Assembly (NCBI GenBank): GCA_938003515.1
Contig: CALKYL010000307.1
Location: forward strand, 1 to 6,282
Reading direction: 5' to 3'
Source: an uncultured bacterium
GTDB lineage: Bacteria; Planctomycetota; UBA1135; UBA2386
Length of the DNA: 6,282 nt
Shown here: positions 90 to 3,781 of the stretch, piece by piece
Layout of the letters: the number at the start of each line of letters is the position of its first letter
Position numbering within the stretch: the first letter of the stretch is position 1
Notes under the pieces: generated by a model
What the model was told of the DNA's origin: nothing
Database searches by the model: none
Seen by the model: the letters and a program-made list of their open reading frames with translations, nothing else
Made by a program: the position numbers and the translations under genes

Positions 90-776
90 ATGCGTGCTCG
101 TCGACTGTGCCTCGTCCTCGCCTGTCTCGCGGCGTGCAGCGCCGGCCCGGAAGAGGCCAGCGTCAAGCCGGGCATCAACGAGAACTTCCTCGATCCGGAC
201 CTCGATGTCGACGCCATGGTCCAGCGCTTCGAGACCGAGAGCCGCGAGGTGTTCGCGAAGCGAAGCGCGATCGCGCGCGCGGTCGGGCTCGGCCCCGGCA
301 TGGCGGTCGCCGACGTCGGCGCCGGCACCGGCATCTTCGTCGATTTCTTCGCGCGCGACGTGACCGCGAAGGGCCGGGTCTACGCGGTCGAGATCGCGCC
401 GAAGTTCGTCGCGGCGCTGCGCGAGCGGGCCGCGGCGCGGCGCATGCCGCAGGTGGAGGCGGTGCTCTGCACCGAGCGCGACGTCGGGCTGCCGCCCGGG
501 TCGGTCGACGTCGTGTTCACGTGCGACACCTACCACCACTTCGAGTATCCGCGCTCGACGCTGGCGTCGATCCGCGAGAGCCTGCGGCCCGGGGGCGCGT
601 TCGTCGTCGTCGACTTCGAGCGCATCCCCGGCGTGTCACGGCAGTGGCTGCTCGACCATGTGCGCTGCGGCAAGGAACAGGTGATCCGCGAGATCACCGA
701 GGCCGGCTTCGAACTCGTCGAAGAGGTGCCGCTCGGCTTCGAGGAGAACTACTTCCTGCGGTTCCGCAGGGTCTGA
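90..776 (+). CDS. Lipoprotein-anchored class I SAM-dependent methyltransferase
   Basis: This is a 228-residue protein with a class I (Rossmann-fold) methyltransferase domain. Motif I is DVGAGTG at residues 75-81. The acidic residue ending strand 2, expected to bind the SAM ribose, is E101 in VYAVE. The motif IV region is FTCDTYHHF (143-151), followed by LRPGGAFVVVDF (165-176). The N-terminus is a short basic and hydrophobic stretch ending in a lipobox, L13-A14-A15-C16, so C16 should be lipidated and the enzyme placed outside the cytoplasmic membrane. An in-frame TTG at 18 would add 24 residues, but ATG 90 is chosen because it puts the signal sequence at the N-terminus and follows a TAnnnT element. 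The family resemblance is to bacterial methyltransferases with the segment EYPRSTLASIRESLRPGG; the substrate is unknown. Export is puzzling because SAM is not known to be available in the periplasm. It ends convergently with the selenoprotein gene, 49 nt away. Confidence 0.88.
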   Translation: MRARRLCLVLACLAACSAGPEEASVKPGINENFLDPDLDVDAMVQRFETESREVFAKRSAIARAVGLGPGMAVADVGAGTGIFVDFFARDVTAKGRVYAVEIAPKFVAALRERAAARRMPQVEAVLCTERDVGLPPGSVDVVFTCDTYHHFEYPRSTLASIRESLRPGGAFVVVDFERIPGVSRQWLLDHVRCGKEQVIREITEAGFELVEEVPLGFEENYFLRFRRV

Positions 777-793
777 ACCGCTGCGGCGCGGCC

Positions 794-818
794 GCCGCCC
801 GACGATCGGCCGGGCGGC
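794..818. terminator. GC hairpin between convergent genes, likely bidirectional terminator
   Basis: GCCGCCCG (794-801) pairs perfectly with CGGGCGGC (811-818) around a 9-nt loop. It fills the 49-nt gap between the methyltransferase stop (776) and the selenoprotein stop (826), so it could serve both transcripts. No T tract follows on either strand, so intrinsic termination is not proven. It may instead work with Rho or act as a 3' stabiliser. Confidence 0.5.
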
Positions 819-825
819 ACAGCCC

Positions 826-1053
826 TCAACTCGGCTGCAGCCGGGACAGCACTTCGCCGTGCTCCGGGAAGCGGTCCCCCATGCTGCGCTTGTCCCAGAC
901 CCGGCGGCCGTCGACCGTGACGATGAAGTCGCCCCTGCCGCCGGGCACCTTCTCGACCTTCGCCTTGGGATGGGCCTTCTCGATCGCGGCGGCCAGACCG
1001 GCCGCCTTCGGAAGGTAGTTTCAGACCACGCAGTATTCGATCTTCACGTGCAT
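826..1053 (-). CDS. SelW-like (Rdx family) selenoprotein with in-frame UGA at codon 11
   Basis: Reading the minus strand from ATG (1053-1051) gives MHVKIEYCVV, then UGA (1023-1021), then NYLPKAAGLAAAIEKAHPK and on to a final UGA at 828-826. With the first UGA decoded as selenocysteine the protein has 75 residues, normal for bacterial SelT/SelW/SelH (Rdx) proteins, which are small thioredoxin-like redox proteins. The redox motif is C8-V9-V10-U11. The next residues, NYLP, and the later VPGGRGDFIVTVDGRRVWD (37-55) and RFPEHGEV (61-68) match the family on both sides of the UGA, so this is one continuous protein. A SECIS-like hairpin lies 15-33 nt after the UGA. The gene uses UGA both for Sec and for its real stop. 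No Shine-Dalgarno sequence is visible; TACACT ends 6 nt before the ATG. It lies 47 nt downstream of the DUF423 gene on the same strand. Its electron donor and cellular target are unknown. The main alternative, a pseudogene with a nonsense mutation, is unlikely because the UGA sits exactly at the catalytic Cys/Sec position. Confidence 0.92.
988..1006 (-). promoter_or_regulatory. Bacterial SECIS-like hairpin within the selenoprotein mRNA
   Basis: On the minus strand GGCGGCC (1006-1000) pairs with GGCCGCC (994-988) in a perfect 7-bp stem with the loop GGUCU (999-995). The stem begins at nucleotide 15 after the UGA and the loop at nucleotide 22. Bacterial SECIS elements sit inside the coding region directly after the Sec codon and are bound by SelB. 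The E. coli fdhF element has the apical loop AGGUCU, so GGUCU here is a striking match. The bulged U of the fdhF stem is absent, and the loop is about 4 nt further from the UGA than in fdhF. Confidence 0.75.
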
Positions 1054-1059
1054 GGCCGC

Positions 1060-1065
1060 AGTGTA
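1060..1065 (-). promoter_or_regulatory. Putative -10 element (TACACT) of a leaderless promoter for the selenoprotein gene
   Basis: On the minus strand TACACT is followed by GCGGCC and then the ATG at 1053. The 6-nt spacing would start the mRNA at the ATG. It lies in the 47-nt gap after the DUF423 gene, so the selenoprotein can be transcribed alone even if it is also read through from upstream. Confidence 0.5.
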
Positions 1066-1100
1066 GGCCACGTGCGGTGGCGGCCAAGGGTGCGCCGGCC

Positions 1101-1520
1101 TCAGCCTTCTCCGCTCCCGTGGCCGGTGCGGCGCCGGGCCGCGAGCAGCAGCGACAGCCATCCGGCGAGCAGCGCGACGCCGCCGATCGGCGTCACCGGC
1201 CCGAGCCAGCGCAGCTCGAGCAGGACGAGTCCGTAGAGCGAGCCGCTGAAGAGCGCGATGCCGACCGTGAACAGCCACGTCGCCGCCGTCGTGCGCACGC
1301 CGATCCGGTGCAGCGCGGCACAGCCGAGCAGCGCGAGCGCGTGGTACATCTGGTAGCGCACGCCGGTCTCGAAGGTGCGCAGCGCGGCTTCGTCGAAGCG
1401 CGACTGCATCGCGTGCGCGGCGAACGCGCCGAGGCCGACGGCGAGGCCGCCGAAGACGGCGGCGAGGCGCAGCGCGGGGCCGGCCGGGGCGGCGGCGAGG
1501 GGGGCGTCCGTGGCCTGCAT
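1101..1520 (-). CDS. DUF423 family small integral membrane protein (YgdD-like)
   Basis: This 139-residue protein carries the hallmarks of DUF423: GLAVGLGAFAAHAM (25-38), ETGVRYQMYHALALLG (51-66), a GIALFSGSLYGL segment (87-98) and GPVTPIGG (107-114). Four hydrophobic spans are visible, at about 17-38, 57-71, 79-98 and 108-127, followed by a basic, presumably cytoplasmic tail (ARRRTGHG). Length is typical for the family plus about 15 extra N-terminal residues. The ATG at 1520 is supported by a TAGCCT element ending 6 nt upstream. DUF423 proteins are widespread inner-membrane proteins of unknown function; E. coli YgdD is one. The small lipoprotein gene lies 26 nt upstream and the selenoprotein 47 nt downstream on the same strand, so the three could be partly co-transcribed. 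Nothing suggests a shared pathway. Confidence 0.9.
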   Translation of the reverse strand: MQATDAPLAAAPAGPALRLAAVFGGLAVGLGAFAAHAMQSRFDEAALRTFETGVRYQMYHALALLGCAALHRIGVRTTAATWLFTVGIALFSGSLYGLVLLELRWLGPVTPIGGVALLAGWLSLLLAARRRTGHGSGEG

Positions 1521-1526
1521 GCGCGC

Positions 1527-1532
1527 AGGCTA
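1527..1532 (-). promoter_or_regulatory. Putative -10 element (TAGCCT) of a leaderless promoter for the DUF423 gene
   Basis: On the minus strand TAGCCT is followed by GCGCGC and then the ATG at 1520. The string CTGCGCGCATG is identical to the start region of the gene at 5453. The element falls between the lipoprotein stop and the DUF423 start. Just upstream is a 5-bp hairpin, CGGGC/GCCCG at 1533-1545 with a 3-nt loop, which could separate the two transcripts. Confidence 0.5.
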
Positions 1533-1546
1533 CGGGCGGCGCCCGC

Positions 1547-1681
1547 TCAGCGACAGACGCGGACGAGCGGCGGTCGGAAGAGGAAGCCGCGGCAGCCGTG
1601 GCGGTGGAAGTGGCAGGCGGTGAGCGACGCGCCGACCACGGCCAGCACGACGATTCGGAAGATCCGGCGCGACGATGGCAT
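1547..1681 (-). CDS. Small Cys/His-rich lipoprotein, 44 residues
   Basis: The minus strand from ATG (1681-1679) encodes a 44-residue protein ending in UGA at 1549-1547. Residues 1-22 form a classic signal sequence: basic MPSSRR, then a hydrophobic core IVVLAVVGASL. They end in the lipobox L20-T21-A22-C23. The mature part is only 22 residues and begins CHFHRHGC, with Cys at 23, 30 and 43 and His at 24, 26 and 28. It is otherwise basic. Unlike its neighbours it has a good Shine-Dalgarno sequence, GAGGA ending 7 nt before the ATG. Tiny lipoproteins of this kind are common and poorly conserved, so I do not assign a function. The His/Cys cluster could bind a metal, which is inference. It is 26 nt upstream of the DUF423 gene. 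The combination of signal peptide, lipobox and Shine-Dalgarno sequence makes a chance reading frame unlikely. Confidence 0.68.
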   Translation of the reverse strand: MPSSRRIFRIVVLAVVGASLTACHFHRHGCRGFLFRPPLVRVCR

Positions 1682-1846
1682 CGGGGATTCCTCGGTTGTC
1701 GACGAGCCGCGGGCCGGCCAGCGGCGCCGTGCCGCCGTCGCCCGAGCGGCGAAGGGGGCCGTCGAGCGCAGGCGGGCGGGCAGCGTGCCGCCAGCGGCCC
1801 CGTTCTTCTCCGTCCCCGCGCCCGCATCGGCCGATAATCAGGCGTC
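1682..1846. other. Divergent intergenic region
   Basis: These 165 bases separate the lipoprotein start (minus strand) from the beta-lactamase/esterase fusion start (plus strand). They hold the lipoprotein's Shine-Dalgarno sequence (within about 1689-1693) and the GATAAT element at 1833-1838. I see no RNA gene, repeat or further credible open frame, and no clear promoter for the lipoprotein gene. Confidence 0.5.
1833..1838 (+). promoter_or_regulatory. Putative -10 element (GATAAT) for the fusion gene
   Basis: GATAAT matches five of six positions of TATAAT and stands out in GC-rich surroundings. It ends 8 nt before the ATG at 1847, so the transcript would be leaderless or have only 1-2 leader bases. 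No Shine-Dalgarno sequence is visible. An overlapping reading, TAATCA at 1835-1840, would give the 6-nt spacing seen at other genes but has A in place of the final T. Confidence 0.45.
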
Positions 1847-3781
1847 ATGGGCACCTCACGAACCATCCGTTGGTTGCTGCTCGGCGGGCTGATCGCGGCG
1901 CTGCCCGCCCAGGCCCCCGAACTCCCCGGCGTGCGCGACGCGGTCGACGGGGTCGCCAAGGGGCTCGGGCTGGACGGCGCGGCGCTCGTCGTGGTCCGGG
2001 CGGATCGCGAACTGCACCGCAGCGAGCACGGCGCCGTCGCGGGCGACACCGTGATGCCGATCGCCTCGGCGAGCAAGTGGCTCGCCGTCGCGACCGTGCT
2101 GACCGTCGTCGACGAGGGCAAGCTCGACATGGACGTCGAGGTCGGCCGCTACGTCGAGGAGTTCGACCGCGACGACCTTCGCGCCGTGACCGTGCGGCAG
2201 TGCCTCTCGTGCACGAGCGGACTGCCGGCGCGACTCGGCGAGAGCATGCGCGGCTGGGACATGCAACGCTTCGCCGAGGAGGCCGCCGGCGCCGGGCTGC
2301 GCGCGCATCCGAACACCGCCTTCGTCTACGGCGGCGTCGGGTTCCAGGTCGCGGCCGTCGCCGCGTGCCGCGCGACCGGCAAGGACTGGCACACGCTGTT
2401 CGAAGAACGCATCGCCGGCCCGCTCGGCATGCGGGACACGCGCTTCGGGAGCCTGCAGCCGATCGGCGGCGAGCCCGGGCGGACGGCGCTGCCCTGGGTC
2501 GCGGGCGGCGCGGTGTCGTCGCTCGACGACTACGCGCGCTTCGTGCGCATGCTGCTGGCCCAGGGCGAGTGGGACGGCGTGCGCGTGCTGAGCCAGAAGA
2601 GCGTCGCCGACATGTTCCGCGACCAGGTCCGGGAACAGATCGACGTGCGGGGCGTCGCGCTCGTGTCCGACGACGTGCGCTACGGGCTCGGCACGTGGAT
2701 CGAGCGGCTGGAGGACGGCGGCACGCGCGTCAGCGACCCCGGCGCGCTCGGCTTCACGCCGTGGATCGACCTCGAGCTCGGCGTCGGCGGCGTGTTCGCG
2801 GTGCAGGACCGCGCAGCGCGCGTGCTGCGCCGTCTCGAGCGCGTGCACGCTGCGACCCGCGCCGCGGTCCGCGCGGCGGAGATCCCCGGCGGAGCCGAGA
2901 CGGTCGAACTGGAGCACGGCGGTCGGGACCGGCGCTACCACCTGCACGTGCCGCCGCACCAACGCACCGCCGACGCACTGCCGCTGCTCGTCGTGCTGCA
3001 CGGCGGCGGCGGCAGCGGCGAGCACGTGCGCGAGGTGACGCGGCTCGACGAGCTCGGGGTCGAGGCGGGGTTCGTCGTCGCCTTCCCCGACGGCACCGGG
3101 CGCCTGCCGCGGCGGCTGTTGACGTGGAACGCCGGCGGCATCGACGTGTGGGCCTCCCGCAACGACATCGACGACGTCGGCTTCCTGCGCGCGGTCGTCG
3201 CCGACGTGCAGCAGCGGCTGCCGATCGACCCCCGTCGCGTCTTCGTCGCGGGCCACAGCAACGGCGGCATGATGTGCCACCGACTGGCACGCGAGGCGGC
3301 CGACGTGTTCACGGGTATCGCGGTCGTCGCCGGAGCGATGAACTGGACCGGCGCCGATGCGACCTCGCCGCTCGCCGTCCTGCTGGTCCACGGGACGAAG
3401 GACCGCCACGTGCGCATCAGCGGCGGCGAGACCGAGGTGCGCTTCGGCGGCGGCGAGGGCCGCGTCGACGCGCCGCTGCAGGCGGCCGTCGACTACTACG
3501 TCGAGCGCAACGGCCTGAAGGGATACCCGGAGTCGATCACCGAGGGGGGCGTGCGCGTCGACACGTACGCGACCGCGAAGCAGGACGGGACCGTCGTCGC
3601 GCCGGTGCGCGTCGTCACCCTCGAAGGCGGCGGCCACGCGTGGCCGGGCACCGCCGAGCGCCCCGCACTGCTCGCGGACGCGGCGATCGACTGGCCCGCG
3701 TCGCGCGCGATCGTCGAGTTCTTCACGTCGCTCCAGCCCGCGCGTTCCGCGCGGGAGCCGGCGCCGTCGGTGCCACGCTGA
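1847..3781 (+). CDS. Exported two-domain hydrolase: serine beta-lactamase-like domain fused to a PHB-depolymerase-type esterase
   Basis: This is a 644-residue protein. Residues 1-23 are a Sec-type signal peptide with an A-Q-A cleavage site. Domain 1 (about 30-325) belongs to the beta-lactamase class C/PBP-like serine hydrolases. It has the SxxK motif S74-A-S-K77, LSCTSGLP (120-127), Y161 in YGGVGFQ (in place of YxN), GPLGMRDT (191-198), AGGAVSSLDDYARF (219-232) and YGLGTW (279-284). The usual HxG/KTG motif appears replaced by D297-P-G299 in SDPGALGFTPW. Domain 2 (about 348-628) is an LpqC/PHB-depolymerase-type alpha/beta hydrolase. It shows an HGGGG oxyanion loop (385-389), the nucleophile elbow G469-H-S471-N-G473, likely catalytic D519 in HGTKDRH, and H597 in GGGHAWPG. 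Both active sites look intact apart from the altered third motif of domain 1. The protein probably cleaves ester or amide bonds outside the cytoplasm. Candidate substrates are polyesters, acylated plant or polysaccharide esters, or D-amino-acid peptides; the sequence does not decide. It stands alone on its strand. Confidence 0.9.
   Translation: MGTSRTIRWLLLGGLIAALPAQAPELPGVRDAVDGVAKGLGLDGAALVVVRADRELHRSEHGAVAGDTVMPIASASKWLAVATVLTVVDEGKLDMDVEVGRYVEEFDRDDLRAVTVRQCLSCTSGLPARLGESMRGWDMQRFAEEAAGAGLRAHPNTAFVYGGVGFQVAAVAACRATGKDWHTLFEERIAGPLGMRDTRFGSLQPIGGEPGRTALPWVAGGAVSSLDDYARFVRMLLAQGEWDGVRVLSQKSVADMFRDQVREQIDVRGVALVSDDVRYGLGTWIERLEDGGTRVSDPGALGFTPWIDLELGVGGVFAVQDRAARVLRRLERVHAATRAAVRAAEIPGGAETVELEHGGRDRRYHLHVPPHQRTADALPLLVVLHGGGGSGEHVREVTRLDELGVEAGFVVAFPDGTGRLPRRLLTWNAGGIDVWASRNDIDDVGFLRAVVADVQQRLPIDPRRVFVAGHSNGGMMCHRLAREAADVFTGIAVVAGAMNWTGADATSPLAVLLVHGTKDRHVRISGGETEVRFGGGEGRVDAPLQAAVDYYVERNGLKGYPESITEGGVRVDTYATAKQDGTVVAPVRVVTLEGGGHAWPGTAERPALLADAAIDWPASRAIVEFFTSLQPARSAREPAPSVPR
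3737..3755. repeat. Perfect 8-bp inverted repeat inside the 3' end of the fusion gene
   Basis: CCCGCGCG (3737-3744) and CGCGCGGG (3748-3755) pair perfectly around TTC. The hairpin falls in codons for the disordered-looking C-terminal tail (SLQPARSAREPAP), after the esterase fold has ended, and 25 nt before a second hairpin at 3781. It may be part of a tandem termination or mRNA-end structure. Confidence 0.45.

Follow-up and report, generated by a model that had tools for sequence, protein, structure and literature searches.

The window analysed here, a stretch of 6,282 nucleotides, carries on its minus strand a small gene of the SelW-like (Rdx) family with two UGA codons in its frame, one at codon 11 and one at its end. 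The features of the locus and its surroundings are the following:

90..776, plus strand: class I SAM methyltransferase gene, convergent neighbour of the SelW-like gene
793..819, minus strand: 11-bp hairpin with the loop CGAUC after the terminal UGA, loop at 17 nt
826..828, minus strand: terminal UGA, read as stop, end of the SelW-like gene
826..1053, minus strand: SelW-like (Rdx family) putative selenoprotein gene, 75 residues, predicted Sec at position 11 (CVVU), terminal UGA stop
988..1006, minus strand: SECIS-like hairpin, perfect 7-bp stem GGCGGCC/GGCCGCC, loop GGUCU, loop start 21 nt past the UGA
1021..1023, minus strand: in-frame UGA, codon 11, probably read as selenocysteine, kept in 13/13 bacterial relatives
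1101..1520, minus strand: DUF423 family gene, upstream neighbour
1847-3781, plus strand: beta-lactamase-type serine hydrolase and PHB-depolymerase-like esterase domains in one protein

Read on the minus strand, positions 1053 to 826 translate to MHVKIEYCVV-UGA-NYLPKAAGLAAAIEKAHPKAKVEKVPGGRGDFIVTVDGRRVWDKRSMGDRFPEHGEVLSRLQPS-UGA, with the internal UGA (complement of plus-strand 1023-1021) placed after VV and before NYLP, the redox motif C8-V-V-U11 near the N-terminus and the C-terminus SRLQPS followed directly by the terminal UGA. The coordinates, frame and residues that the first-pass annotation had given for this gene were reproduced by the translation, and its remark that standard calling easily misses the gene also holds, as the gene is absent from the ORF list and is overlain by shadow ORFs, among others 749-1087 (minus strand) and 859-1236 (plus strand). 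A spurious ORF of 369 aa (1021-2130, minus strand) ends at the codon-11 UGA in the same frame and overlaps the DUF423 gene in a different frame.

The gene order around the SelW-like gene is partly shared with relatives, which were collected in one scan of genome contigs that yielded 22 loci (L001-L022). Within the flanks retrieved for each locus, the methyltransferase gene lies beside selW in three of the 13 bacterial loci (L006, L010, and L012), the DUF423 gene is found in four (L001, L006, L009, and L010), and the beta-lactamase/esterase fusion is kept in five (L001, L006, L009, L010, and L012), with 55-62% identity. These shared neighbours place the window with that Planctomycetota group (L001, L006, L009, and L010, plus L012). 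By eye, a TACACT/TAGACT/TAGAGT hexamer ends 6-7 nt before the ATG in the window (1060-1065, minus strand) and in L001, L006, L009, and L010, and no Shine-Dalgarno sequence was seen before the ATG of the SelW-like gene; a leaderless or nearly leaderless mRNA would fit this combination. The hairpin at 793-819 sits between the two convergent genes. Positions 740-1160 were scanned for sigma-70 promoters and terminators without a hit, and no terminator-like T-run site was found; against Rfam, the window had two hits below threshold (E 1.4 and 4), which are attributed to chance. Neither the plasmid collection nor the viral contigs searched held a match or relative of the SelW-like gene.

With both UGAs written as C for the searches, the read-through protein matches Pfam Rdx (PF10262) over residues 2-72 and profile positions 1-72 of 74 (E 1.4e-17; 64.1 bits against a gathering threshold of 22.6). 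Two NCBIfam SelT/SelW/SelH models were also over their cut-offs, with 57.2 bits for TIGR02174 (cut-off 34.2) and 90 bits over residues 3-72 for NF041051, the SelTWH_Campy (seleno)protein model; with a cut-off of 88, the window protein is barely inside the latter, whose name points to Campylobacter and relatives. With regard to the thioredoxin-like fold expected of the family, a sequence profile of it searched against the sequences of solved structures gave eight matches, the best being 3dex (E 1.1e-16) and including selenoprotein W, 2npb (E 3.5e-4). The family matches are far beyond chance, and from sequence the product is predicted to be a SelW-like protein with a thiol-redox role. The first-pass statement that SelW/Rdx proteins carry CxxU or CxxC at this site agrees with the alignment, in which each of the 17 rows has one of the two.

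Among the bacterial relatives, TGA occupies the same codon in 13/13 loci (L001-L013), which comprise seven from Planctomycetota (L001-L004, L006, L009, and L010), four of Verrucomicrobiota type (L005, L007, L008, and L013), one from Polyangia (L011) and one assigned only to a bacterium (L012). The eight Haloferax loci (L014-L021) all have Cys instead of UGA; their Rdx proteins share the domain, read IEYCVPC at the redox site and are 38-43% identical to the window protein. The first-pass annotation had suggested a search for such Cys-for-Sec homologues, and the alignment of an in-frame UGA with Cys in homologues, by which selenoproteins are recognised, is therefore present here. One further locus, L022 (E 5e-4), was left out, since no Rdx gene can be read from its match. 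In the set of 14 genes formed by the window gene and L001-L013, pN was 0.20 and pS 0.55 in codons 3-10 before the UGA (0.014 and 0.415 for the IEYC codons), and 0.26 and 0.59 in codons 12-29 after it, so that both sides are under purifying selection as protein.

These data bear on two other explanations of the internal UGA. According to the first, translation stops there and an internal start yields only the part after it, as in public gene models. The database search found 12 homologous proteins of 47-64 residues, all of which start after the aligned UGA position, as this explanation would have it, and consequently lack the CxxU motif; P0002 is named a putative SelT/SelW/SelH-like selenoprotein, P0003 and P0004 are Rdx family proteins from Planctomycetota and P0012 is the same from Deltaproteobacteria, while the other eight carry no source name. 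Against such a restart stand the strong protein-level selection on IEYC before the UGA, the Haloferax Cys relatives that read through the site, and the loss of the redox motif that it would entail, all of which make it very improbable. Less probable still is a pseudogene, in which a CxxC Rdx gene in decay would have acquired the UGA by nonsense mutation: the frame is indeed closed under the standard code, but the identical UGA in 13/13 bacterial relatives, the otherwise open frames and the purifying selection on both sides speak against it. The decay in close relatives that the first-pass annotation had named as contrary evidence was not seen.

Downstream of the internal UGA, the hairpin at 988-1006 has the properties of a bacterial SECIS element. 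The published model (PMC13188914) calls for a loop of 3-9 nt with G within its first two nucleotides, a stem of 4-16 bp, a spacing of 16-37 nt and a minimum free energy of at most -7.5 kcal/mol, and the window hairpin falls within all of these limits (loop GGUCU, 7 bp, 21 nt, and, over the 45 nt that follow the UGA, -20.5 kcal/mol). In the single-sequence minimum fold, the top of the stem pairs slightly differently, and the same is seen in the upper pairs of a 54-nt stretch including the UGA, which has a fold z of -2.47 and is equalled by 4/200 shuffles. Across the 14 genes, 92.9% of cells are paired, against at most 62.2% for slid versions, and RNAalifold without a supplied structure recovers this helix with one additional inner pair. 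The covariation score was matched by 0/500 shuffles, a significance overstated by the fact that the relatives are not independent. Pair 21/33, which connects third codon positions, is seen as GC, AU, CG, and UG. The stem does not appear to be rigid, because the outermost pair is broken in 5/14 genes and pair 22/32 in two (L001 and L009), and because the number of stem pairs with changes on both sides, three of seven, was reached by 150/500 shuffles. The single-strand fold of L001 differs.

Residue 19, whose codon lies in the loop, is Gly or Ser in all 14 genes, with the codon always GGT or AGT, while elsewhere in the same genes GGT makes up 20/90 Gly codons and AGT 2/10 of the AGT/AGC codons; in four neighbouring genes of the window, GGT accounts for 6/165 Gly codons. 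In 12 relatives, the loop codon represents 0-22% of its synonyms, with the background frequencies taken from selA/B/D loci only (L005 has none). Multiplied over 13 genes, the loop-codon frequencies come to 7e-15, or to 3e-11 with Ser limited to AGT/AGC, the significance of both values being overstated by shared ancestry. The motif [AG]GT[CT]TGG stands 21 nt past CxxU in 30/30 loci of a phylum-wide survey (L055-L084), which represent 26 distinct stretches and of which L055 repeats L001.

The genes for selenocysteine synthesis and insertion are found in most of the relatives' genomes. SelA, SelB, and SelD were each over cut-off in 12/13, with one in-frame TGA in ten of the 12 SelD matches, preceding AAK in all eight looked at, and tRNA-Sec exceeded its cut-off of 47 bits in 11/13 (best scores 59.3-78.8 bits, among at most 150 candidates scored per genome). 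The tRNA-Sec cut-off is not clean, because five of 14 control genomes exceed it as well; SelB and SelD were over cut-off in two controls each and SelA in one, and weak matches to tRNA-Sec, SelB, and SelD occur in 14/14 controls and to SelA in 4/14. The draft genome G005 had none of selA, selB, selD, and tRNA-Sec over cut-off, and G001, which holds the closest relative, had no tRNA-Sec over cut-off among the 150 of 1365 candidates scored; the genes missing in some genomes are likely draft gaps. The absence of selB and selC, which the first-pass annotation had held would refute its reading, was thus not seen in these 13 genomes, except in G005, where none of the four genes was over cut-off. The window contains no tRNA, and the machinery would be expected in the source organism's own genome by analogy with its relatives. 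A genome-wide reassignment of UGA, for example to Trp or Gly, is the least probable explanation, to the point of being negligible: a conserved in-frame UGA by itself would look identical, but UGA is a normal stop in the window (of four neighbouring genes examined, three end in it and none has an internal stop), TGG is used in all four, and Sec machinery is present in the relatives.

It is proposed here, with a probability of about 96%, that the product of the gene is a SelW-like redox protein in which the codon-11 UGA is read as Sec via the downstream SECIS hairpin and the terminal UGA is read as stop. Ribosomes would arrive at the UGA of codon 11, where the hairpin with the loop GGUCU just downstream would bind SelB carrying Sec-tRNA-Sec; the insertion of selenocysteine would complete the C-x-x-U redox centre, and the terminal UGA, having no matching SECIS loop, would be read as stop. 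The insertion of Sec, already put forward in the first-pass annotation, is supported by the conservation of the UGA, the Cys in Haloferax, the covarying hairpin and the Sec machinery of the relatives.

The presence of Sec and stop readings of UGA within one 228-nt gene, also pointed out at first pass, holds as well, and the use of UGA for both purposes is normal in Sec-decoding bacteria. Nine of the 14 genes end in TGA, four in TAG and one in TAA, and [AG]GU[CU]U was found within 60 nt after the terminal TGA in 0/9 of the genes with this stop. The terminal hairpin of the window gene agrees with a loose SECIS geometry but departs from the usual G[G/U] loop pattern, since in CGAUC the G is second and not followed by G or U. 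The loop sequence therefore likely discriminates the Sec UGA from the stop UGA, as judged from the terminal hairpin as read in the window. Both UGAs are followed by strong hairpins of loose SECIS geometry, and a bolder and rather doubtful extension is that, with the first alone read as Sec, they form a natural matched pair that isolates the loop sequence; if true, SelB in this lineage would read the loop sequence and not the shape or spacing of the hairpin.

The survey of 294 Planctomycetota genomes (the phylum of G001) found SelW family matches in 110, with a total of 126 matches, 119 of them having one in-frame TGA and seven being stop-free; where the TGA lies within the gene was determined for L055-L084, the 30 loci retrieved. 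The stop-free matches have CxxC (L085, L089, and L090), CxxG (L086, L087, and L088) or neither (L091, SEPA). The three CxxG loci, in G294, G161, and G146, respectively, are second copies with Gly for Sec (CVPG, CEVG), and a TGA-containing copy is present in the same genomes; GGA, a Gly codon, is one base away from TGA. Two SelW-type matches with one TGA each were found in 11 genomes (G001, G067, G078, G098, G138, G162, G168, G177, G190, G191, and G204), which may therefore encode a second SelW-like selenoprotein. A selA match was found in 193 genomes at E < 1e-40 and in 191 over cut-off. By the former measure, it is present in 98/108 genomes with a TGA-containing SelW match, the other ten having no strong selA match, versus 95/186 of the remaining genomes (Fisher p 6e-13, with significance overstated as the genomes are not independent). 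G017 and G304, whose sole SelW match is stop-free, have no selA match at E < 1e-40. The TGA form is the rule in the Planctomycetota genomes sampled (119/126 matches), and selenium use in this phylum is thus probably under-annotated. The 12 database homologues illustrate the gap, as the start after the UGA leaves the catalytic motif missing from the annotated protein.

Bacterial SelW-like CxxU selenoproteins have been published since at least 2005 (PMC1088965, PMC1794560, and PMC2398784). The family was the most abundant selenoprotein family in the Sargasso Sea set, with 48 genes (PMC1088965), was among the most widespread in the GOS data, where its members are tabulated as 427 selenoproteins against 56 Cys homologues (PMC2398784), and is listed in tables of PMC1794560. 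Sec use in Planctomycetes has likewise been published (PMC4807772), with SelW absent from the main text of that paper. The window gene shares with the known bacterial SelW-like selenoproteins the CxxU motif, the small Rdx domain, the bacterial SECIS and membership in a family of mostly Sec forms, and nothing fundamentally different was seen in it. Its own traits are the high-GC window, the Planctomycetota-like gene order and the CVVU followed by NYLP. It leaves existing knowledge of selenoproteins unchanged and is very probably one further Sec-encoded SelW gene of a well-known family, of an ordinary kind that is easily missed.
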